DNA of 42,228 nucleotides from a virus, in the IMG/VR virus record IMGVR_UViG_3300009094_000185, positions 1 to 42,228 of that record; one strand, written 5' to 3'. The stretch's first letter is position 1. Every line of letters starts with the position of its first letter. Shown here piece by piece: positions 84 through 40,909 of this stretch. Both the position numbers and the translations under genes were made by a program. The notes beneath the pieces are model-generated. The model did no database searches. It worked only from the letters and a program-made list of their open reading frames with translations, and was not told the origin of the DNA.

Positions 84-199
84 CTATAAGGGAACGCATT
101 CACTACAATCGACTCAGCCGCATTCATGATGAGGGCCAGGGTCTAATATACGCATGGATCATGTCTATAATCGATGAGGTGTTCAGACATGGAACATAA
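80..199 (+). CDS. small ORF between partial gene and DNA polymerase
   Basis: A 39-codon ORF, beginning MTIRERIHYN, overlaps the preceding stop by ATGA and runs 11 nt into the polymerase gene. It has no signal peptide or recognisable motif; the middle (GLIYAWIMSIIDEVF) could form a hydrophobic helix. The start is supported only by the overlap geometry. It could be a translational coupler rather than a functional protein. Confidence 0.4.
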   Translation: MTIRERIHYNRLSRIHDEGQGLIYAWIMSIIDEVFRHGT

Positions 200-2801
200 A
201 TATGTCCCTGGTATGGGCAGTATAGGTGCCAAGCTAATGATACTTGGCGAGGCACCCGCGCGTGAGGAAACTATACAAGGTAAACCATTCGTCGGCGCTT
301 CTGGCCGTGAACTAGACCGCTTGTTAAGTGATGCTGGTATTCGGCGTGGTGAATGCTGGATAAGTAATGTCTGCAAGTATGAAGTCCCTCCAAACGAATT
401 TCGCAAAAAGCTGCCATTCCATATCCGCGCTCGGGATCATGGCATTGATATGGACCAGCAGCTAGCAGAGTTGAGGACAGAGATTGAAGAAATTAAGCCT
501 AACACAATACTCGCTCTCGGTGGGACTGCTCTATGGGCATTGTCCGGGAAAACTAAAATATCACTACACCGAGGCTCTATCATGTGGGGTATGGGGCGTA
601 AGTTTGTTCCTACCTATCATCCCGCGCATCTGTTACATAGTGCTGCGGGTGGAGAAATCAAAGGTTATTGGAACCGACAAGTAATGATATTCGACATGAA
701 GCGGGCACATGTCGAGTCACTGACTCCGACATTAGAATTGCCTAGCCGCACTCTCCAGATATGTCGAAACTCCGGTGAACTATATCAGTTTCTCGACAGA
801 TATAAAGACTGTAAGAAACTGTCAGTTGATATAGAGGCAGGTGGTCATTGCCTGCCCATCTGTGTCGGACTCTCATTCAACAAGTCTCATGGTATGTGTA
901 TTCCCTTGTGGAATAAGGATAGCATATCAGACATACCTACTTCAGACCTTGCAACTATATGGCTGATGTTAGCCAAGATTCTATGGGAGAAACAAATTGT
1001 CGGACAGAATTTCAATTACGACCGGGACAAACTTCGCAGACTCGGTTTTGCCATCCAACGTATCCACTCTGATACATTACTCAAGGCATTTGCTATTAAC
1101 CCTGAACTCCCAAAAGGGCTTGCATTCCTTACATCTATCTATACCCGAGAACCCTACTACAAAGACGAGGGTATGTATGAGGGGGAACTTAGAGATTTAT
1201 TCATGGGGTGCGCGCGTGATAGTTGTGTCACGCTCGAAATAGAAGAAGCGATGGATGAGGATGTAGATGAATTGGGTGTAAGGAAGTTCTATGAGAATTT
1301 CCTAATGACACTACCCGACTTCTATGCCGAGATAGAGAATAATGGATTCGACGTGAATGAGAGAGTGCGAAGTGAACTAGTACAGAAGTATGTAGAGTGG
1401 GATGAACGACTCGGATTTGAGATGTTCCAACTCGCAGGCGCGGATGTCAATCCATCATCTCCATTGCAGGTTCACAAGCTACTATTCGATGACTGGAAAC
1501 TACCCTACAGACAAGGAACAGGTGAGGAGGAGCTAACTGCTCTGTTAAATCTTCAGACAGGTGTTAAGTTCCCTGCACATAGAGAATGGATAGAGAAGTG
1601 TTTGGAGCGTCGGCGCGTGCGTAAGACGATAAACACTTATCTAATGGCGATTCCAGACTTCGATGGTAAGATGCGGACTACCTGTTTTATGTGCCTCGAA
1701 ACAGGTCGCACTTCTACAGGTCAGCAAGATCCCCCAATAAGACCCCTCGTAGATACAGTCGGTAAAGGTGCCAAGAAAGACATGAAAGTTATGGGCACAG
1801 CGTTTCAGGTATTCACTAAGCATGGTGATATCGGAGCTGATGTGCGTTCAATGTATGAACCTGAGCGCGGCTATATCTTCGTCCAACTTGACTCGTCACA
1901 AGCTGAAGCGCGTGTAGTGTTCAATCTCGCAGGTGATGAACAAGCATTAAAGGATATTGATGAGCACGATTACCACGCTCTCACTGCTTCTTGGTTTTTC
2001 GGTGGCACTGAATCTGATTACTCTAAGAAGGTATTGGGTTATGAAAGCCCTATTAGATTCGCAGGGAAAACTCTCCGCCATGCGGGGCATCTTGCAGCAG
2101 GCAAACGACGCGCAGCTACAGAACTTAACACGCAAGCCCGTAAGTACAAGATTCCGATTACTGTTAATGAGGCTACTGCTGAAAGGGCTTTAAAGATATT
2201 CCACGCCAAACAGCCTAAGATCCAGCAAGTGTTCCATCATGAAGTAATCGAATGCATTAAACACAACCGGCGCTTGATTGCGCCTCTGCCTTGGGGGATT
2301 GATGCAGAACGAGGTGGTGTGCGTATATTCTATGAACGATGGGGTGACGACTTATTCCGAGAGGGACTCGCCTATCTCCCACAACGAGCTGTCACTGATA
2401 ATACCAAAGCGGCTGGTATCAGAATTAAGAGAGGATTCCCAGAGGCGAAAATCATTCTTGAAGCACATGACGCACTTCTTTTCGCAGTGCGAATCGAGTA
2501 TCTCGACGACTTTATCCCTCTAGCTAAGAAGGAGATGGAGCGTCCGATTAACTTCCTTCATTGTAGCTTACCACGTCGCTACCTGAAGATTCCATGTGAC
2601 GTGGAAGTAGGCGAGAACTATCGTGACCTAAAGAAATTCAGTCGGAAGGATGAGCCAGTTAAGATTGAACTACCTGAACAAATACGTGCAAGACCACTAA
2701 CTGTAACTGAACAATTCCTAATGACTGATGAAGATGTAAGAGATGAAATGTTCAGGAAAAGAGAAACTAGTAAAACAGCAGATGATGACATTCCATTCTA
2801 A
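189..2801 (+). CDS. uracil-DNA glycosylase / family A DNA polymerase fusion
   Basis: Replicative DNA polymerase of the phage, about 870 aa. Residues ~15-155 carry family-4-like uracil-DNA glycosylase motifs: GEAPAREE, GKPFVGASGREL and a late YHPAHLL. A proofreading 3'-5' exonuclease follows at ~215-355, with Exo I DIE, Exo II GQNFNYD and Exo III ARDS. The C-terminal half is a PolA palm/fingers with motif A LDSSQAEAR, a motif B-like GKTLRHAGHLAAGK and motif C AHDA. Motif C is HDA instead of the usual HDE. There is no 5'-3' exonuclease domain. An in-frame ATG lies at 174, but the ATG at 189 has GAGGTG 8 nt upstream and is preferred. SPO1-type phage polymerases are known to carry a comparable N-terminal UDG-like domain. 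The family-4 Fe-S cysteine pattern is not obvious, so glycosylase activity is uncertain. Confidence 0.9.
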   Translation: MEHKYVPGMGSIGAKLMILGEAPAREETIQGKPFVGASGRELDRLLSDAGIRRGECWISNVCKYEVPPNEFRKKLPFHIRARDHGIDMDQQLAELRTEIEEIKPNTILALGGTALWALSGKTKISLHRGSIMWGMGRKFVPTYHPAHLLHSAAGGEIKGYWNRQVMIFDMKRAHVESLTPTLELPSRTLQICRNSGELYQFLDRYKDCKKLSVDIEAGGHCLPICVGLSFNKSHGMCIPLWNKDSISDIPTSDLATIWLMLAKILWEKQIVGQNFNYDRDKLRRLGFAIQRIHSDTLLKAFAINPELPKGLAFLTSIYTREPYYKDEGMYEGELRDLFMGCARDSCVTLEIEEAMDEDVDELGVRKFYENFLMTLPDFYAEIENNGFDVNERVRSELVQKYVEWDERLGFEMFQLAGADVNPSSPLQVHKLLFDDWKLPYRQGTGEEELTALLNLQTGVKFPAHREWIEKCLERRRVRKTINTYLMAIPDFDGKMRTTCFMCLETGRTSTGQQDPPIRPLVDTVGKGAKKDMKVMGTAFQVFTKHGDIGADVRSMYEPERGYIFVQLDSSQAEARVVFNLAGDEQALKDIDEHDYHALTASWFFGGTESDYSKKVLGYESPIRFAGKTLRHAGHLAAGKRRAATELNTQARKYKIPITVNEATAERALKIFHAKQPKIQQVFHHEVIECIKHNRRLIAPLPWGIDAERGGVRIFYERWGDDLFREGLAYLPQRAVTDNTKAAGIRIKRGFPEAKIILEAHDALLFAVRIEYLDDFIPLAKKEMERPINFLHCSLPRRYLKIPCDVEVGENYRDLKKFSRKDEPVKIELPEQIRARPLTVTEQFLMTDEDVRDEMFRKRETSKTADDDIPF

Positions 2802-2812
2802 GAAGTAGAAAA

Positions 2813-4090
2813 TTGACATGGCTAGAAAAACTACTCTCCCAACACTCGGAGCTGGAAAGTCCAACCAACTTTTGGTTGTGGGGCGGTATGGCAGCAATAT
2901 CTGCCGTAGTGAAAGACAACGTATGGATTAATCGGCAGATATACAACTTGTATCCCAACATCTACGTCATGTTTCATGCGGAGTCGGGGCTGAAAAAGGG
3001 TCCGCCTATAAGCATGGCGAAACAATTGGTGCGCGGTGTGAACAACACCCGTATTATCAGTGGGCGTAGCTCTATCCAAGGTATTCTCAAGGAGATGGGA
3101 ACGGCACAGACACAACCTGGAGGAAAGGTAATAGCTAAATCGACGGCGTTTATATGTAGTTCAGAGTTGACTAGTTCCATAGTTGAGGACAAAGTAGCGA
3201 CCGACATTCTGACCGACTTGTATGACAGACAATACAACATCGGTGAGTGGCGATCACTACTGAAGATGGAGCAGTTCAATCTGAAAGACCCTACAATTAC
3301 AATGCTAACCGCGACGAATGAGGCGCACTCGAATGACTTCTTTGGAAAGAAGGACTTACATGGAGGATACTTCGCTAGGACATTTGTAATCTCCGAAACT
3401 AAACGCAACCGTGCCAATTCATTACTCGTTCCATTAACAAATCCACCGAAGTATGCAGAGTCAATAGAGTATTTAAAGACAATTGGAAAGTTGTCAGGAC
3501 CATTCAAACCACTCGCACAGAAAGAGGAGACAGAAGAATACAATAGGCCACATATTGAAAGGGAAACAGGTGAGACAGCTTACTTCACACATGCAGGACT
3601 AAGATACCAACAATGGTATGATGGATTCATTGACCAGATGGAAACTCAGGAAATGAAAGATGAGACTGGGACATTGAATCGATTTGGTGATAGCGTATTA
3701 AAGGTAGCAATGCTACTTAGTCTGAGCCGCAGTCCAGAGCTATACATCGACTTCGATTCGATGGAATTAGCTATCTCCTATTGTGAGAAGTTAATAGGTA
3801 ACGTGAGGGAGATGACTCATGGAAGGAAAGGATTGAGTGAAGCAAAGCACATCAAGAATCTCATCATCAAGGAATTCTTAGCTCGACCTACACATCAAAT
3901 AAGTCGAGCATTACTACTCAAGAATATGTGGTCACACTACAAGGAGGCGAGTGAACTAGATGAGATCATGCTATCATTCGACCAGTCTGGTGTAATCAAG
4001 ATGGAATCGATAGGGAATCAAATCATCTATGTCATGCCTGACATAGTAGTGAAGGAATATTCTCGATTGTTTGCAGGGAAAAGCAGATGA
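2813..4090 (+). CDS. DUF3987-like helicase/ATPase
   Basis: A 425-aa protein opening with TWLEKLLSQHSELESP and a Walker-A-like FHAESGLKKGPP at residues ~54-65, as in phage DUF3987 proteins that sit beside the DNA polymerase and probably act as replicative helicases. The canonical Ser/Thr after the P-loop lysines is Gly here, so ATP binding should be tested. The C-terminal ~80 residues look like a winged-helix segment. The frame opens with TTG at 2813; the ATG at 2818 is out of frame, and the next in-frame Met is 25 residues inside the conserved region, so TTG is the likely start. It lies 11 bp after the polymerase stop. Replicative role is inferred from context. Confidence 0.7.
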   Translation: MTWLEKLLSQHSELESPTNFWLWGGMAAISAVVKDNVWINRQIYNLYPNIYVMFHAESGLKKGPPISMAKQLVRGVNNTRIISGRSSIQGILKEMGTAQTQPGGKVIAKSTAFICSSELTSSIVEDKVATDILTDLYDRQYNIGEWRSLLKMEQFNLKDPTITMLTATNEAHSNDFFGKKDLHGGYFARTFVISETKRNRANSLLVPLTNPPKYAESIEYLKTIGKLSGPFKPLAQKEETEEYNRPHIERETGETAYFTHAGLRYQQWYDGFIDQMETQEMKDETGTLNRFGDSVLKVAMLLSLSRSPELYIDFDSMELAISYCEKLIGNVREMTHGRKGLSEAKHIKNLIIKEFLARPTHQISRALLLKNMWSHYKEASELDEIMLSFDQSGVIKMESIGNQIIYVMPDIVVKEYSRLFAGKSR

Positions 4091-4912: not shown

Positions 4913-4918
4913 TCATTT
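4907..4918. terminator. 12-bp palindrome carrying both convergent stop codons
   Basis: AAATGATCATTT is a perfect palindrome. The rightward gene ends with its TGA at 4910-4912 and the leftward gene with its TGA at 4913-4915, so one symmetric site supplies both stops. There is no room here for a conventional terminator. Whether the palindrome affects transcription is unknown. Confidence 0.35.
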
Positions 4919-7900
4919 ACCACCAAATAATTGCCAATTTCTTGGATCTACTACATCTCTTAATCCACCCCCCGTAACAACCCAATCGTACTCTTTAGGT
5001 ACAATCTTTGCGATACTCTCACCCTTTTCATATATCTGCGAACCACCACCCAACAATACAGGTGGCATCATCACAGGCAGCAGATTCGGATCTTCCTTCA
5101 ATATTTCAATGGTATCCTGTATTGCCAATGGAATGAACAACTGAGCAGTGCGATCATACACATGGAACGGATTGTATTGAGACGCATCCCACAAGTCATA
5201 GCCGAATTTCGTCATTGGATTTAGCTTATTCACCATGAACCTTTGCATTGCACTTCTCTGTGTTTCAGGTCTAAATCCCTGACCATATGCATGTCGCTGC
5301 TGAGATGCAGACGATCTATACATACCACTCCACATACGGTTAGCAGCTACGTAGAACTGTTGGAATCCGCCTCCCAAATCCAACCGCGTGTTACCAATCC
5401 TCATCTTACCAAAGTCTGCACTCTCCTCATCATCACTCACCGTTGCATCATACCCTAATGCTTGGGTTGCAACCTTAGTCAACTGGGTCATCATATACCA
5501 TGCCGAAGCAGTGGCAAGTGCGGACTTCATGTAAGCCTTACGCACTTGAGGAGGCGCCATGACATAGGTAGCCGGACTCAACATCCTCATTCTACTGAAC
5601 ATATTTCGTGGCGAGAATAGAAGGTATCTAAGTCCGCTCGCAGCTTTCTCCAAATTCAATGCAGGCGCACCTGGGATTGGAACAATGTCCAATTTCAATG
5701 GCGCGCGTCCTGTAGCAGTATTGATGAAGTCACCAATAGCCTTAGCTAGTGGTAGATTGTTATACGCATTCAACTCTGCTGCTTCTTGAGGTGTAAATGA
5801 TTGCTTCCTAAGTCCGGGTCTAGCTGAACCAGTAGTCTCTGCTTCAATAGCCATCTTCTGAGATGCATCGAACATCCTCTTAGCTGTATTCGCTCTCAGA
5901 TGATTCAAGAATGTAGCGGCTGCTCTGTTACTAACCTTAGCTACTTTGCCCCATGTCTGACGATATTTTTCTGAGAATTTACCTAAGTTACCACCTGTTT
6001 CAATCCATCCTGAAGCTATAGCATTCTCACTCGCGCTGACACTGGTTCCTTCAATCAGTGGTATTCCAGCTTCTTCAGCGAATGACTTCTGCCACTTACC
6101 AGTTGTCTCATCAAATCTCTTTTGATAGATGTCCATTGATCGAATCTGATCATCTACCATCTTAGCGCGTTCAGCAGTAAATCCATGTGTGAACATGGTT
6201 TTAAGTGCGGAGCGCCATTCCGGAGTAAAGATAGTCGGTAGCCCCTGTCTTAATGGCATCGACACATCAGCTATAGTAGTCGCCGCAGTAGGCAGGCCCA
6301 GTATCTCCTCGAATGTTGACGGTTCTTTATTCGGTCCGCGCTTAAAAAAGTTGGTGATAGTATTTCTTATACCTTCAAGTTTAATCCACTCACGCGGATC
6401 AAACATTCTTGGATCTATTGCCCCGCTCTCAGGATCAATCTTCGGCGCAGTATCAGGAGTAAAATGTTTCTGAATATCTTTCCTTGATCTAATTTGACCA
6501 AATCCAAATCGTTCATTTTCTTCTACTTTTAATCTTCTAGCCTTGTCTAATGAATCCATAGCCCATGCATGAAGCATTTCAGCTTCATCAGGATCAGCAA
6601 CCCTTTCTGAAGCAGCCTTCATTTCATTGGAAGCAAGTCGTGCTTCACTCTCAGTTTTTTGAGCTTCAATTAATTTCTGTACATGCGCATCCAACGCTCG
6701 CATGTTTGGTTCATTATCACTAATTCCACCTTTTATAATTCTTTGTAGCTCTTTCGTTGCTTCAAATAAATTCTTAGGTGCTGTTGGCGTAGCAAATTTA
6801 GCAACTCTGCCTCTCGTTTCACCTGATGTAGGTCCATATTCATTTGAATCAAATGGACCCCTATTCACAGCACTCTCTAGTGGAAGTGGCATCTGTTCGC
6901 CACCTGCAAAGTCTAGATTAGGTTGCTCAGGTAGAGTCTCCAACTCCGCAGCAGTTCTCGGCTGTCTAGCTGCTCTAGGCTCAAATGGTAATTCAGGCTG
7001 TGGCCCAGCATCAGACCCCATGTTTGCGATTAATTCCGCCAAATCTTCGGGCGTCCTAATTCTTACAGGCTGACCCTCATATTGCTTCATCTTCATTAGT
7101 CGTGCTATGAGATTAGCAAGTTCAGCTGAGTTTACGTCAATACCAGCCCTGACTTTATCACTGATTGATTCAATGAGATTAGCAGTATGTTGACTAATAG
7201 TACCAGAAGCCTCAGCTGCATCTAGTTCAACTAGTTTCATGCCTACTTGATACACTGCTCTACCTAACAGTCCTCCTCTATTTACTCTACCAGTGACATG
7301 ACCAGTAGTAGGATCATATGTGTCCTTAAATCTATCAGCTGCAAGAGTACCAACTTTTCTGGTACCATCTGCTCCCTGTGTAATAATTGCCGTTACAACT
7401 GGTTTACCATCTGGTCCCCTGTATGTAACCCTATATCTCCCATAATAATCAGTTGGAGTAGGACTATGATACCCTTCCTTCACTATTTCTAATCCAGGAG
7501 TTCCATTTGGTATATGATGTAATTCCCTTCTAGCCCAGCCATCCCAAGTTGGATCCCATTGTGCTAGTGATATCTTTTCCCTCTTTAATTGTTCAGGACT
7601 CATCTGTGCCCGTGCCTGACGTGTATGATACGAGGCTCGGGCTAATCTATCATAGGGTTCCTCACCCATCTGAATTGGGCCTTTATAGGGCGGTTGCGGA
7701 CCTTCTACAATTGGAATACTTTCGGCTGCTGTTTTATTTTGCAGATTGAGTGGTTCCTGAACTTCTCCACCACCCATCTTCCTTTCGATATTTTGTAATA
7801 TACCTTCAATATGACTTTGAGAAGCATAATCACCTGAATCTAATGCATCCTGGAATTCAGTTAGCAATCTGCTTCGTATTTCTGTCAGATCAGATAGTCT

Positions 7901-10537
7901 AGTTGCTCTACTAGCTGCCCTTCCAAGCTCAGATATTGTCATTTCTGAAATTGTAGGTTGAGATGCAGTTTGAGTTTGGGCAGGTCGAGATTCACCCTCA
8001 CGTAGCTGTCGTAATCTCTCATAACCAGACATTCTTATCCGATGAGCTTCTGTTCTAGTATCATTATCACGCGCACTAGAAGATTCTCGCCATAGTTCAT
8101 CCATGTCTCGTTGTGCTGCTTGTACTTGTTCTCTAGTTGCAGCATTCCGAATATTTTCCTCAGCAGTTCTCAGTCTGTTAACTATAGCTCCTGGAGATCC
8201 AGGTTGAGGTGATGGACCTAATTCAGCACGTCTTATATTAATTAAATGATTCAATTCCTGTGCACGTTGCATATCAGCAGGATTACCACGATTTGCATCT
8301 AGACTAATAACATCACCAAAATGATCTACCAGAGCATTCAGTTCTTCTGCAGTTTGAGCCTCACGAATCAATCGTTCTTCGGGAGACAATTGATTCCTTC
8401 TACCTGCACGAAGTTCTGTGAGCCTAGCATTTGCTCTAGCCAACATATCTAGAGCGTGATTGTATGCTTCAGTATCTGCACTTTCACGGAATGAAGGCAA
8501 ATTATCTTCCCAGAAATCAACTATCTGTCTAGCTGTAGCAACATCGTGGGAACTATTTATCTCCTCAATATCAGCTTCCTTCAATTGCAATCGTTCTGCT
8601 CGATTTTGCGGTATGTCAAGTGGAGGTTCCATTGCAACAGATGGTAATGGTTCCTGTCTCATCACTGTTGGATCAATAGATGGACCCATCCGCCCAGATA
8701 TAGGCTGCTGAACTTCTTCCTGATTAAATCCCCGAAGAATTGCCTGAACTTCTTCTTCAGGTATTTCACGCACTCCTGATCTAGCTCTAGAAAGTAACTC
8801 ATCCAAGTATGTTCGGGCTTTAGTTCCTGCTGGACTATTTGCTACTCGTTGAAGCCCAGCACGTACTATTCGTATAGCCTGCTCTATATCCATTGATCCA
8901 ATTCTGGTACCAACTAGATTGGATCTATGCCGGAAGATAGTATTATCTCCACTCTTAGTGTAAACCTCGTATCCACCTTCCTGCATATTTTCAATGAATC
9001 CAGGTGCTTCAGCTCGTGCAGTAGGAACAGTAATATCTGCATTACCTCCAACTGTTCTCATACTAGTTCCACCAGGTCCAACTCTAGCTCCAACGGCTGG
9101 TGGTGTAACAAGTGTTGGTGCAGCGGGAGTAGGTGGTAGCATCTGAGCTAATTCACCACGTACCATTTGTAACTGACCCTCTGGACCACGTAGAGTAGGA
9201 TGAGTTACATATCCCTGATTTTTCCTCAGTTGTAGTTCCACCCTATCAGTTGGCATGTCAATTACAGGTGGTAATGCTGGCTCTGGTCCAGCAGTTTCAG
9301 GCATGGTCAAACTCAACTCTTGTGGCTGAGTCTGAGCACGCATATGCTGTTCAAATGGCGTTCCTTCTGGTCTAACAGGAGCCATTGACTCTACAGGTGG
9401 AAATTCAAATGGAGTAGGACGCAATACACCTTGACGCATTTCAGGTGCTATGTTAGCAGGATTCGTGAATTTATTGTCCTGACGCCATGTAAATCCTCTC
9501 AAATCACCCTGTTCTGTAGGCATCTCAGGGAATGTTGGCGCCGCTGGTTCAGGCGTAGGCTGCCAATTCTGCTTCAGATCATTGGCGCGCATCTTAGCTT
9601 CGAGAATTGCATTGTCTATCTGCGTAACTCTGGTTAAATCTCCCATCCTCTGTGCTTCAGTACGCTGCAAGGTCAGTTCAAATATCTGCTGCTGCGTCTG
9701 CGCATCAATAGCTGCCATTCCCTGCGCTCTAGGATCAGCAACTTCTCTAGTCGGCATTCGCGCTTCAGGTATTTGAGAACTAAAGTCTACATTCTCCATG
9801 CCCGGTAATCTAGGCTGGCGCGGGTCCATTATTCCAGCAGATGGTGGGGGAGGTGGAGCAGCTCCTCCGGGTGGTGGAGGTAATTCTCCAGTTATTTCTC
9901 TAGCAGCAGGTTTTCCTTTACCTAAGTAATGAAGAAGTGCATTAAAACCAGCTGCACCTACACCCATTCCACCTAAAGTAGCATAATCACCTTCTTCATA
10001 CGCTTTTAGAACCTTTTCAGCAGGTAATCCAGCCATTCCTGCTGCTTCACTAATACCAGCCTTTCTCTTTTCTTCTTCAGAACTCTCCCACGTCGCACCC
10101 GGTAGAGGAAATTGACCAGTGAAGATTCTAGCGCCTAAATCCGCTGTTTGCTTGAGTGGATTTGCCCATGTCGTAGTCGCTAAATTCGCAGCATCAGTAA
10201 AATCACCGTAAGCAGCCTTCTTAGCCGTTGATTGAATCTCTCCAAACAAATTTTCTAGTGGTTCAATGGCTCCTGAATAAATAGCCGGTCCAATTTTCTT
10301 CATCCAATCAGGTATGTAGTAGCCAGCTCGTAGGGCTGATGTAGTAGTGGTTGGACTAGTTACACTACCATAATCCTGCATCCAGTCTGGCGTATAGATA
10401 CCAGTCCGACCTGCCATCGCCGTGCCAATAGGCGTAGCTTCAGGAAATGGCTGATAACCAGACGGATACTGTGGAACCGCGGGTGGTTCATATGTAAACG
10501 GCTGATAACCTGTTGGATACTGAATTCCTTGAGGCAT
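4913..10537 (-). CDS. giant internal-virion / polyvalent protein (1874 aa)
   Basis: The largest gene, last in the late operon. The N terminus has two copies of QYP(T/S)GYQPF and two of Y(T/I)PDWM. A Pro-rich linker follows at ~215-235, then a long Gln/Ala/Glu-rich helical region with many Arg/Glu pairs, a beta-rich block near the middle (RYRVTYRGPDGK), and a ~400-residue C-terminal helical domain (SNRAAATFLNHLRANTA, later PATYVMAPPQVRKAYMKSA). Its size, position after tail genes and composition fit podoviral ejection proteins or the large polyvalent proteins of phages. No transglycosylase or peptidase motif was identified. It starts on a TAATG overlap with the preceding gene. Role inferred from context. 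Confidence 0.65.
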   Translation of the reverse strand: MPQGIQYPTGYQPFTYEPPAVPQYPSGYQPFPEATPIGTAMAGRTGIYTPDWMQDYGSVTSPTTTTSALRAGYYIPDWMKKIGPAIYSGAIEPLENLFGEIQSTAKKAAYGDFTDAANLATTTWANPLKQTADLGARIFTGQFPLPGATWESSEEEKRKAGISEAAGMAGLPAEKVLKAYEEGDYATLGGMGVGAAGFNALLHYLGKGKPAAREITGELPPPPGGAAPPPPPSAGIMDPRQPRLPGMENVDFSSQIPEARMPTREVADPRAQGMAAIDAQTQQQIFELTLQRTEAQRMGDLTRVTQIDNAILEAKMRANDLKQNWQPTPEPAAPTFPEMPTEQGDLRGFTWRQDNKFTNPANIAPEMRQGVLRPTPFEFPPVESMAPVRPEGTPFEQHMRAQTQPQELSLTMPETAGPEPALPPVIDMPTDRVELQLRKNQGYVTHPTLRGPEGQLQMVRGELAQMLPPTPAAPTLVTPPAVGARVGPGGTSMRTVGGNADITVPTARAEAPGFIENMQEGGYEVYTKSGDNTIFRHRSNLVGTRIGSMDIEQAIRIVRAGLQRVANSPAGTKARTYLDELLSRARSGVREIPEEEVQAILRGFNQEEVQQPISGRMGPSIDPTVMRQEPLPSVAMEPPLDIPQNRAERLQLKEADIEEINSSHDVATARQIVDFWEDNLPSFRESADTEAYNHALDMLARANARLTELRAGRRNQLSPEERLIREAQTAEELNALVDHFGDVISLDANRGNPADMQRAQELNHLINIRRAELGPSPQPGSPGAIVNRLRTAEENIRNAATREQVQAAQRDMDELWRESSSARDNDTRTEAHRIRMSGYERLRQLREGESRPAQTQTASQPTISEMTISELGRAASRATRLSDLTEIRSRLLTEFQDALDSGDYASQSHIEGILQNIERKMGGGEVQEPLNLQNKTAAESIPIVEGPQPPYKGPIQMGEEPYDRLARASYHTRQARAQMSPEQLKREKISLAQWDPTWDGWARRELHHIPNGTPGLEIVKEGYHSPTPTDYYGRYRVTYRGPDGKPVVTAIITQGADGTRKVGTLAADRFKDTYDPTTGHVTGRVNRGGLLGRAVYQVGMKLVELDAAEASGTISQHTANLIESISDKVRAGIDVNSAELANLIARLMKMKQYEGQPVRIRTPEDLAELIANMGSDAGPQPELPFEPRAARQPRTAAELETLPEQPNLDFAGGEQMPLPLESAVNRGPFDSNEYGPTSGETRGRVAKFATPTAPKNLFEATKELQRIIKGGISDNEPNMRALDAHVQKLIEAQKTESEARLASNEMKAASERVADPDEAEMLHAWAMDSLDKARRLKVEENERFGFGQIRSRKDIQKHFTPDTAPKIDPESGAIDPRMFDPREWIKLEGIRNTITNFFKRGPNKEPSTFEEILGLPTAATTIADVSMPLRQGLPTIFTPEWRSALKTMFTHGFTAERAKMVDDQIRSMDIYQKRFDETTGKWQKSFAEEAGIPLIEGTSVSASENAIASGWIETGGNLGKFSEKYRQTWGKVAKVSNRAAATFLNHLRANTAKRMFDASQKMAIEAETTGSARPGLRKQSFTPQEAAELNAYNNLPLAKAIGDFINTATGRAPLKLDIVPIPGAPALNLEKAASGLRYLLFSPRNMFSRMRMLSPATYVMAPPQVRKAYMKSALATASAWYMMTQLTKVATQALGYDATVSDDEESADFGKMRIGNTRLDLGGGFQQFYVAANRMWSGMYRSSASQQRHAYGQGFRPETQRSAMQRFMVNKLNPMTKFGYDLWDASQYNPFHVYDRTAQLFIPLAIQDTIEILKEDPNLLPVMMPPVLLGGGSQIYEKGESIAKIVPKEYDWVVTGGGLRDVVDPRNWQLFGGK

Positions 10538-37829: not shown

Positions 37830-38003
37830 GTGAAGCGTTTCTTCTGCACAGTATGTAAGCGAGTTAAGCGGGTTCGCAAGTATCCGCTTGACATTCAGCA
37901 TGTAAGCGATTCTGTTCCTTTGAACAGAATCGGAACATGCAATCATCACACGCACTCACTCTCGTCGAATTACAAGCCACGCGCACGAAAGGTTGGCGCG
38001 TAA
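37830..38003 (+). CDS. small zinc-ribbon-like early protein
   Basis: 57 aa from GTG 37830, which has CCGAAAGGAC 9 nt upstream. The frame's ATG at 37752 precedes the transcription start and is disfavoured. CTVC and CNHHTH give a Cys2/His2-like arrangement; Arg/Lys-rich. Function unknown. Confidence 0.55.
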   Translation: MKRFFCTVCKRVKRVRKYPLDIQHVSDSVPLNRIGTCNHHTHSLSSNYKPRARKVGA

Positions 38004-38641
38004 TGTTGCACCATACTCCAAAACAGACTACTGGCGACTGCGAATTCTGCGAGCGGACGGGTGTAGCGCTCACGCTACAGCATGGTGACATGATGTGTGA
38101 GAGCTGCATTGCGGACGAAGCAAAAGCAGTTAAGACTGTAGAAGAATCGCGTGTAATTGACTCAGCGATTCAGGTCAAGTCTGACGTGTTCGTGGCGGAG
38201 ACTGTAGCATTCGTGGAATTGGATAAGGCAATTCAGTCCAATCCTGCTATCCCCACTGACATAAAGGGCTACACTCTGGCGAAGCTCGCGGCAGAGCGTA
38301 TCGACCAGATAGGTAATGCCATCTTCGTGAAAAAGGCGGAGTTGGCACATCTGGAGGACGAGCATAGGAAGTGGCTGGTAGATACGCACATCGCAGTATC
38401 TAAGCTGCGTCCTGAACTGCGTGCTCAATTCGCGCAATACAATATCGACTACAAGCCCGCATCTGCTACCAAAGTCAAGAAAGTACAGCCTGCTAAGAAG
38501 GGTAAGGCATTCGATAAGAAGGCTGTATACGACGCGGCGAAGAAATACAACGTGCCAGCGGCTCAGGTGCAGTCGATGGTCATTACGCGGAATCTATCTC
38601 CTGATGCTGCTGCAAAGCAGTTGTCAGACCTACTCAACTAA
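38003..38641 (+). CDS. early protein with zinc-ribbon N terminus
   Basis: 212 aa starting on TAATG. CEFCERTG ... CESC at ~15-37 is a Cys4 ribbon. A long helical middle (HLEDEHRKWLVDTHIAVSKL) and a basic C terminus with KKVQPAKKGKAFDKK, then an SAP-like or HTH-like end. Possibly DNA-binding; no family recognised. Confidence 0.55.
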   Translation: MLHHTPKQTTGDCEFCERTGVALTLQHGDMMCESCIADEAKAVKTVEESRVIDSAIQVKSDVFVAETVAFVELDKAIQSNPAIPTDIKGYTLAKLAAERIDQIGNAIFVKKAELAHLEDEHRKWLVDTHIAVSKLRPELRAQFAQYNIDYKPASATKVKKVQPAKKGKAFDKKAVYDAAKKYNVPAAQVQSMVITRNLSPDAAAKQLSDLLN

Positions 38642-38645
38642 TTAC

Positions 38646-38667
38646 ACTCGACTCCGAAAGGACGAGT
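38646..38667 (+). promoter_or_regulatory. hairpin-presented ribosome binding site
   Basis: ACTCG pairs with CGAGT, placing ACTCCGAAAGGA in the loop just before the ATG at 38673. This could help or tune initiation. Confidence 0.4.
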
Positions 38668-38672
38668 CAACT

Positions 38673-38831
38673 ATGACTGTCAAGGAATTGAAGGAAATGA
38701 TTGCAGAGCTTCCAGATAATTTGGAAGTCTGCTACGAATATGATGGGCCGGATGCGCACACAGAAGTTGAAGCGCATACCATCATCATCTACTCAGACCG
38801 TATTCTCATCGTAGAGAAGGCGGTGAACTAA
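38673..38831 (+). CDS. small early protein
   Basis: 52 aa, MTVKELKEMIAELPDNLEVC, an alpha/beta fold typical of short phage proteins. TAATG overlap with the SprT-SNF2 gene. Unknown function. Confidence 0.6.
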   Translation: MTVKELKEMIAELPDNLEVCYEYDGPDAHTEVEAHTIIIYSDRILIVEKAVN

Positions 38832-40909
38832 TGAATCGTAAAGATGCAGCGGACTTGCTCAGAACCAAACTCAACGAGTTTGGTTTGACAGATTGGTCAG
38901 TCCGTCTCAACCAAAATGCAGAGTCTCGATTTTTGGGACTCTGTAGCTACAAGGACAAGTGTATTATCTTGTCTGCCCACCATATCGACATACATCCTGA
39001 CCCGGACGTGCAGAACACTATTCTGCATGAGATAGCCCATGCATTAGTGGGGCCGGGTCACGCGCATGATGAGATTTGGCAAGCCAAAGCTCGCGAAATA
39101 GGATGCGACAACACTCTCCCGTGCTCTAACCTTTCACTCTCTCCTGAGATTATCGATGCGATTCGCTCTGGCGCGGATGTGGAAGTTACATTCGACGAGC
39201 ATCTGATTCGCACTCCGAAATACACCGTAACGCGCTTGCAGGATAAGTGCGAAGTATGCGGGAAGGTTGCAAAGACTAAGAGCGAGAAAACCATTGTGAG
39301 TCCGAGTGATGACCAGCCTGATATGAAGTTTATCACGCTGGAATGCGGACACATGATGTTCAAGAAGATTCCGAAAGGAACTCCATTCCATCAATTTCAG
39401 ATGGGTGGTGACGCTAATTGCCAGCATGAATGGAATAAGAATTCATGCATGAAATGCAATCGCAAGCGTCCCTACGCATTCCAATTGGAAGGAATGAAGT
39501 TCCTAGAGCAGGCCCTCTCAGTAAGCAAGGGCGGCGCGATATTCGATGAGATGGGACTAGGTAAGACCATTCAAGTCGGCGGCTACCTGTATTTCCATCC
39601 TGAGTCATATCCGACATTATGGCTCGTCAAGTCCGCGCTCAAGTATCAGACTGCATCATTCATTCTGCATTGGATGGGCGACGAGCATGTCCCGCAGATA
39701 GTCAATACGTCGAAGGATTGGCTCATTCCTGGTCTGAAGCACTACATCATCGGCTACGACATGCTGGTGCATAAGACTAGGACATTGAAGAACGGCACAG
39801 TCGTAACGTCAGGATTCGACATCAAGCAATTTGACCGTGTTGGAATCAACTGTGTCGTGCTAGATGAATGTCAGCAGATTAAGAACGTGGACAGCAGCCG
39901 GACGCAGATGGTGCGACAGATAGTGAAGTCGCGTAAAGTCATTGCACTATCTGGCACACCGTGGAACAACCGTGGTTCTGAACTATTCCCCGTTCTCAAC
40001 ATGATGGACCCTGTTAAGTTCCATAGTGAGGCGGGATTCAAGAGTCGCTGGGTTGACACATACTGGAGCGGCAGATATCAGAAGGAAGGCGGAATACGTA
40101 ATATCAAGGCGTTCAAGGAATACACGAAAGACTTGTGTATCCGTCGCGAGAGGACTGAAGTCCTACCAGAATTGCCGTTAGTCAACAGGACCAAATTGAA
40201 TGTAGTGATGGACACTACACAAGAGAAGGTTTATGACGAGGCGGTCGCTGAGTTTGTAGCGTGGTATGAAGCTCAGGTAGAGGATATGGGCGGGATGGCT
40301 ATCATAGCTGCTATGGCTAAGATGCGCCGTCTAGTTGCTCTCGCTAAAATCGCTGCTACAGAGGAATACGTGGATGAGTTCGTAGAGGATACAGATAGGA
40401 AGCTCTGTGTTTTCGCTCATCACAAGGACGTGCAAGAGATTCTCTTTACGGACATCAAAGAGAAATACGGCGACCAATTCCCTGTGTTGCAGATTAACGC
40501 AGAGCAGAGTTCATACACGCGGAATGAAGTATGCGAGAAGTTCAATGCTTCACCACGCGCTATACTCGTCGCTAGTCAGTTAGCAGGTGGAGAAGGATTA
40601 AATCTCCAGACATGCTCTGATTGCGTGATGCATGAGAGGCAGTGGAATCCGGGTAAAGAGGAGCAGTGCGAAGGACGATTTATCAGGATAGGCTCAACTG
40701 CTACTTCTGTCTCAGCCGTCTACGCGCACTTGGAAGGTATTACGACTACAGACCCACAGCTTGATGGAATCGTGGAAAGGAAGCGGATTCAATTCCATGC
40801 ATTGCATAACAAGGGCGAGGCTGTAGCGTGGAATGAGGACTCCATCATGAAAGAATTGGCGGAGTCAATTGTCAACGCGCACAAGAAAAAGACGCGGAAA
40901 GCTAGCTAA
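38831..40909 (+). CDS. SprT-like protease / SNF2 helicase fusion
   Basis: 692 aa. Residues ~1-100: SprT-like zincin with HEIAH (66-70) and GHAHDEIW (76-83), supplying the three zinc ligands and catalytic Glu. Zn ribbons follow (C140, C143, C172; C197, C206, C209). Residues ~215-690: SNF2/superfamily 2 ATPase with Walker A DEMGLGKT (239-246), motif II DECQ, motif III SGTPWNN, and motif VI QCEGRFIRIG. SprT proteases digest DNA-protein crosslinks in eukaryotes (SPRTN); SNF2 enzymes remodel or translocate on DNA. The pairing suggests cleavage of proteins on DNA. Bacterial or phage homologues with this fusion may exist; database search not possible here. Confidence 0.85.
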   Translation: MNRKDAADLLRTKLNEFGLTDWSVRLNQNAESRFLGLCSYKDKCIILSAHHIDIHPDPDVQNTILHEIAHALVGPGHAHDEIWQAKAREIGCDNTLPCSNLSLSPEIIDAIRSGADVEVTFDEHLIRTPKYTVTRLQDKCEVCGKVAKTKSEKTIVSPSDDQPDMKFITLECGHMMFKKIPKGTPFHQFQMGGDANCQHEWNKNSCMKCNRKRPYAFQLEGMKFLEQALSVSKGGAIFDEMGLGKTIQVGGYLYFHPESYPTLWLVKSALKYQTASFILHWMGDEHVPQIVNTSKDWLIPGLKHYIIGYDMLVHKTRTLKNGTVVTSGFDIKQFDRVGINCVVLDECQQIKNVDSSRTQMVRQIVKSRKVIALSGTPWNNRGSELFPVLNMMDPVKFHSEAGFKSRWVDTYWSGRYQKEGGIRNIKAFKEYTKDLCIRRERTEVLPELPLVNRTKLNVVMDTTQEKVYDEAVAEFVAWYEAQVEDMGGMAIIAAMAKMRRLVALAKIAATEEYVDEFVEDTDRKLCVFAHHKDVQEILFTDIKEKYGDQFPVLQINAEQSSYTRNEVCEKFNASPRAILVASQLAGGEGLNLQTCSDCVMHERQWNPGKEEQCEGRFIRIGSTATSVSAVYAHLEGITTTDPQLDGIVERKRIQFHALHNKGEAVAWNEDSIMKELAESIVNAHKKKTRKAS

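Follow-up and report, generated by a model that had tools for sequence, protein, structure and literature searches.

SNF2 motors generally track double-stranded DNA. The protease SPRTN (Spartan) combines a protease domain with a second domain that binds zinc and single-stranded DNA, and its partner motors, FANCJ and p97, are separate proteins (PMC12279946). In reconstituted assays FANCJ, once loaded on single-stranded DNA, moves along it into the crosslinked protein; it unfolds this protein and so makes it cleavable by SPRTN (PMC12279946). The SNF2 protein CSB takes part in transcription-coupled crosslink repair (PMC11098752). In jumbo phages, SprT-like and Snf2 proteins have been described separately (PMC7824862). 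Among polyvalent proteins, which are very large, carry further domains and are tied to delivery at invasion, zincin metalloproteases (MPTases, not called SprT) and SWI2/SNF2 ATPases are common and in some cases share one chain (PMC5512222).

Here we analyse a viral sequence of 42,228 nt (IMG/VR record IMGVR_UViG_3300009094_000185; the whole stretch is referred to below as the window) in which a SprT-like protease and a SNF2 motor are encoded by a single gene. The first-pass annotation had read one gene with a zincin signature (HEIAH...GHAHDEIW), two Cys-rich sites and the main SNF2 motifs, and this reading holds: the open reading frame is intact, and its features are as follows.

38831-40909, plus strand: SprT-zinc-SNF2 fusion gene, ATG start, 692 aa, no internal stop
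38831-39142, plus strand: SprT-like protease domain, residues about 1-104 (PF10263; model resembling SPRTN)
39026-39040, plus strand: HEIAH, residues 66-70, zincin active-site motif
39056-39079, plus strand: GHAHDEIW, residues 76-83
39248-39352, plus strand: zinc ribbon 1, C140xxC143...C172xH174
39419-39457, plus strand: zinc site 2, C197xH199...C206xxC209
39479-40252, plus strand: SNF2 N-terminal ATPase lobe, residues 217-474 (PF00176; motor model resembling 1z63)
40370-40693, plus strand: SNF2 C-terminal lobe, Helicase_C, residues 514-621 (PF00271)

Three Pfam families match the protein above cut-off, each exceeding its gathering score: SprT-like (PF10263) on residues 19-93 (E 5e-11, 42.9 bits against a cut-off of 25.6), SNF2-rel_dom (PF00176) on residues 217-474 (E 2e-25, 89.9 bits against 24.9) and Helicase_C (PF00271) on residues 514-621 (E 3e-12, 47.1 bits against 23.5). 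Both Cys/His zinc sites lie between the protease domain and the motor. With both lobes above cut-off and the motifs MGLGKT (241-246), DECQ (345-348), SGTP (374-377) and RQWNP...GR..R.G (603-621) intact, the SNF2 motor is complete, as had been proposed.

Structure prediction likewise agrees with the earlier call of a SprT fold around HEIAH. The model of residues 1-215 (pLDDT 80) finds its best VIA-align match in human SPRTN, with Z 11.4 for both 6mdw (rmsd 2.7 Å over 104 residues) and 6mdx (2.3 Å over 100 residues), followed by the archaeal minigluzincins jannalysin, selecase and abylysin, most of them at Z 8.7-10.3, and then by Wss1 at Z about 7. Foldseek places selecase and jannalysin above SPRTN (E 2.4e-3), all at probability 1.00, and a profile search of PDB sequences is topped by SPRTN, yet only at E 0.11. 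Zinc ribbon 1 is weakly similar in structure to the small-subunit ribbons of RNA polymerase I (Z about 3.8-3.9). In the full-length model (pLDDT 77, pTM 0.48) the motor has SNF2 ATPases as matches, 1z63 (Z about 22), CSB and ISWI among them, with Z values of about 19-22, and the SNF2 relative Mot1 is matched as well; the low pTM limits what this model can say about how protease and motor are arranged. Together, sequence and model support the predicted domain identities and active sites of the fusion protein.

The fusion shares with SPRTN and Wss1 the protease fold and an HExxH with a third histidine. A zinc site (C140/C143/C172/H174) also follows the protease domain of the fusion, in the position of the SPRTN zinc-binding domain, to which it may correspond; for the second, CxH...CxxC, site we found no SPRTN counterpart in the literature searched. 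Unlike SPRTN, whose partner motors are separate, the fusion carries its SNF2 motor in the same chain.

Relatives of the fusion were gathered by three scans of viral contigs in IMG/VR. These yielded 105 fused open reading frames, overlapping records of the same contig included, which reduce to 80 distinct proteins, including 74 of full length; with 80 distinct fused proteins spread over many contigs, we rejected an assembly artefact. The carriers are uncultured phages with genomes of about 47,000 bases. In an alignment of 75 full-length sequences (the window's protein included; identity to it down to 47%), H66, E67, H70, H79, W83, C140, C143, C172, H174 and the Walker/motif I lysine K245 are kept in all 75, zinc site 2 is kept in 74, the remaining sequence being gapped there, and SNF2 motifs I, II, III, V and VI are intact and near-invariant. 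Position H77 of the GHAH stretch varies (F, N, M, Q, E or K), which identifies its second histidine, H79, as the conserved third histidine and the likely third zinc ligand of the protease. The dN/dS ratio is 0.06-0.10 in the SprT, linker, zinc and SNF2 parts alike (eight sequence pairs only), and therefore both halves of the fusion appear to be under similar constraint. In the loci surveyed for this alignment, every SprT domain of the fusion's subfamily came with the SNF2 motor; whatever matched only in part was either a piece of SNF2 at the end of a contig or an SNF2 sister that lacks SprT.

Individual members of the family show local variation. In one fusion (L028:6001-8253) an extra CxxC-containing insert separates the SprT domain from the motor; it appears to be a second copy of the ribbon. 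Two fusion genes (L001:2156-4240 and L003:5001-7085) have the same last 1832 bases, but their first 253 hold 25 differences. Of these, 16 fall in bases 219-253, which code for the third-histidine loop (GHAHNETW vs GFAHGPTW), a pattern that resembles local recombination at the active site of the protease.

The fusion gene does not stand alone. Its neighbours in the window are the following.

38003-38641, plus strand: upstream partner with CxxC...CxxC and a longer conserved region (start by alignment to relatives)
38673-38831, plus strand: 52-aa open reading frame whose TAA overlaps the ATG of the fusion (TAATG); start inferred inside ORF 38421-38831
174-2801, plus strand: UDG-like domain fused to a family A DNA polymerase (PF03167, PF00476; synteny)
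2813-4090, plus strand: DUF3987/primase-like gene, directly after UDG-PolA (family matches)

The long reading frame of the upstream partner has its first ATG at 37937, but alignment to relatives makes 38003 the more likely start. Among fusion loci with 1.2 kb or more of sequence ahead of the fusion gene, a profile search detected the partner upstream in 90/90, a count that includes redundant records; the gap to the fusion is less than 320 bases in most loci and reaches 1.6 kb. The same profile had no match in the SNF2 loci of the SprT-less sister phages described below, two of which have less than 1 kb of upstream sequence. The window's partner protein matched nothing in Pfam or NCBIfam and nothing in PHROG better than E 0.06, and the partner family matched no PDB sequence better than E 0.14. 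The partner protein also carries an 'INYxP' motif. As for the 52-aa frame, the TAATG junction suggests that it is translationally coupled to the fusion. Given this stop/start overlap upstream and a next reading frame that starts directly past the fusion's stop codon, the fusion gene is probably part of an operon.

In relatives, the genes 3' of the fusion encode, in order, a PD-(D/E)XK nuclease, an AAA_24 ATPase, a cold-shock protein and UDG-PolA, the last of which lies about 6 kb downstream and belongs to the replication module. Some relatives have a short conserved protein with no Pfam match between the AAA_24 and cold-shock genes; that it is SSB-like is only a guess. The genes between the fusion and UDG-PolA are absent from the window, which, judging from relatives, is probably short by 4-5 kb of a roughly 47-kb genome. 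The largest open reading frame of the window lies elsewhere, at 4913-10537 on the minus strand (1874 aa).

The UDG part of UDG-PolA (its first 188 aa) was matched in 30/30 related phages searched. The domain is family-4-like (window 174-2801; L208-L237), and because its motif A drifts (GEAP, GDAP, GDSP, GECP), the glycosylase may be inactive in some of the phages. In three of them (L227, L232 and L234) the UDG-PolA frames are only about 560-590 aa long, one with an in-frame TAA, which suggests that these polymerase genes are split or interrupted. We also considered whether the UDG could be a self-crosslinking UdgX that creates crosslinks for SprT. This was rejected: motif A is GEAP or diverged and not GEQPG, there is no KRRIH loop, the loop histidine is unconserved, and the UDG is present in the SprT-less sisters too.

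On a tree of the motor, all fusions fall in one clade with 100/100 support. Their nearest kin are six SNF2 proteins (L030, L032-L036), which are like the fusion in a motor 33-39% identical, a CxxC...CxH-type ribbon and related PD-(D/E)XK nuclease genes, with an AAA_24 ATPase relative detectable in four of the six phages, and unlike it in lacking both a SprT domain and a detectable upstream partner. No HExxH protein was found near these sister loci. Four near-genome-length sister records (44-48 kb) contain one SNF2 protein each and no SprT anywhere, and on these records we rejected the idea that the sisters encode SprT at another locus; six fusion records contain exactly one SprT and one SNF2 each, in one frame. 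Most simply, a zinc-ribbon SNF2 protein acquired a SprT domain once, although the sister phages may instead have lost SprT.

Outside these uncultured phages, the fusion was not found in the isolated phages and plasmids searched. A tblastn search of 50,697 phage and 72,556 plasmid records gave no place covering 80% of the fusion query. A query of residues 1-216 alone was similar to sequences in 941 phage records, in none of them across 80% of its length, and the examples inspected were all stand-alone SprT proteins. Such proteases (Timshel gp78, Emalyn gp30; PHROG 1006) are homologous to the fusion's SprT part, reaching 48-49% identity across some 94 residues, but they are open frames of about 150-260 aa, motorless in every example inspected. 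Conversely, the phage SNF2 DNA helicases of PHROG 62 have a motor homologous to that of the fusion (E 2e-78), but their N-terminal parts lack HExxH in the examples inspected. The Gordonia phage isolate Emalyn possesses a similar set of parts, unfused: a SNF2 helicase (gp52), SprT (gp30), PD-(D/E)XK (gp41), AAA_24 (gp40) and PolA (gp42) are encoded by separate genes. In a viral structure library no fusion was recognised among the matches listed, which were SprT-type or other mostly short proteins for the N-terminal model and SNF2-type helicases for the full model. Two scans of bacterial and archaeal genomes, which would pick up only fairly close relatives, found none. The individual parts are known, but a SprT-SNF2 pairing with zinc modules and a conserved partner like these was likewise not found in the mainly open-access literature searched, so the initial impression that this fusion was not already well described stands.

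What might such a protein do? With about even confidence, we propose that the fusion is a single-chain, DNA-tracking metalloprotease with which the phage clears bound or crosslinked proteins for its replication and recombination machinery. The SNF2 motor would bind double-stranded DNA and translocate with ATP; where a protein is tightly bound or covalently linked in its path, the motor would loosen or partly unfold this protein; the SprT domain, positioned by the zinc modules, would cut the obstacle; and the replication and recombination machinery would then pass the cleared site. We infer that the SNF2 part translocates, that substrate reaches the protease in an ATP-dependent way and what classes of substrate there are, and also that the upstream partner acts as loader or activator of the fusion. 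The division of labour would resemble that of FANCJ and SPRTN, in which a DNA motor readies the protein and a SprT protease then cuts it, with the difference that FANCJ and SPRTN are two proteins and FANCJ loads on single-stranded DNA (PMC12279946). That the fusion is the phage counterpart of such a helicase-plus-SPRTN pair, its ATP-driven SNF2 part feeding DNA-bound proteins into a Spartan-type site with the help of a dedicated zinc partner, is a more tentative suggestion, to which we give slightly less than an even chance. The tracking-protease reading is supported, at the level of sequence and model, by the invariant catalytic and zinc sites, purifying selection, the one-clade origin, the strict association with the partner and the location in the replication module. 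Also in its favour are the separate SprT and SNF2 genes that Emalyn carries beside PD-(D/E)XK, AAA_24 and PolA genes, and the human precedents of FANCJ with SPRTN and of CSB. Since the neighbours are a nuclease, an AAA_24 ATPase, a cold-shock protein, UDG-PolA and a primase, the gene context makes a role in the phage's own replication and recombination more likely than a breakdown of the host's nucleoid or defence proteins, and a SprT domain covalently joined to SNF2 and placed in this module most simply suggests a machine that clears phage DNA.

Counting against a tracking protease are the sister phages, which have related replication genes and no detectable SprT; on this account the protease is not essential to the replication module. 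The motor might be purely a remodeller of forks or of recombination, similar to UvsW, with SprT as an add-on that regulates it, for example by a self-cleavage that shuts the motor off. The sisters' zinc-ribbon SNF2 proteins, kept without SprT beside related nuclease and AAA_24 genes, speak for this reading; Snf2 enzymes have been proposed to replace UvsW in jumbo phages (PMC7824862), and auto-cleavage sites have been identified in SPRTN (PMC9240642). A full zinc-protease site and an upstream partner in every fusion found are, however, not readily explained in this way, and we consider the remodeller unlikely. That the protease domain has lost its activity and instead binds DNA or plays a structural part is scarcely credible: HExxH, the third histidine and the following tryptophan are invariant in 75/75 sequences, and we found no point in its favour.

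The remaining alternatives concern the target. The motor might scan the host chromosome or incoming DNA while the protease destroys nucleoid, defence or restriction proteins, a role of the kind proposed for the large polyvalent phage proteins, in some of which, as mentioned above, zincin and SWI2/SNF2 domains meet; for the SprT proteins of jumbo phages, too, host proteins have been suggested as targets (PMC7824862). The fusion, however, has only 692 aa, with no methylase or other polyvalent domain found, and does not display the assortment of modules (zincin MPTase, ArdC, methylase, ART or similar) that marks polyvalent proteins. It also sits in a replication module and keeps one conserved architecture throughout the family, all of which makes a host-directed weapon rather improbable. 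Still more doubtful is a RapA/CSB-like factor that would displace and degrade RNA polymerases stalled ahead of the phage fork. The structures matched by the motor do include CSB and Mot1, whose targets are polymerase or TBP, and a SNF2 role at RNA polymerase has been proposed for group 1 jumbo phages (PMC7824862), but a scan of window genes turned up no phage RNA polymerase, and RapA itself is a weak match only (E 1e-4).

If the fusion is indeed a DNA-tracking protease, one polypeptide would do the work of separate motor and protease proteins at DNA-protein crosslinks, and it would offer a compact bacterial-virus system for learning how a DNA motor hands its substrate to a SprT protease. More broadly, the fusion suggests that phages evolve machinery of their own to deal with protein roadblocks or crosslinks.
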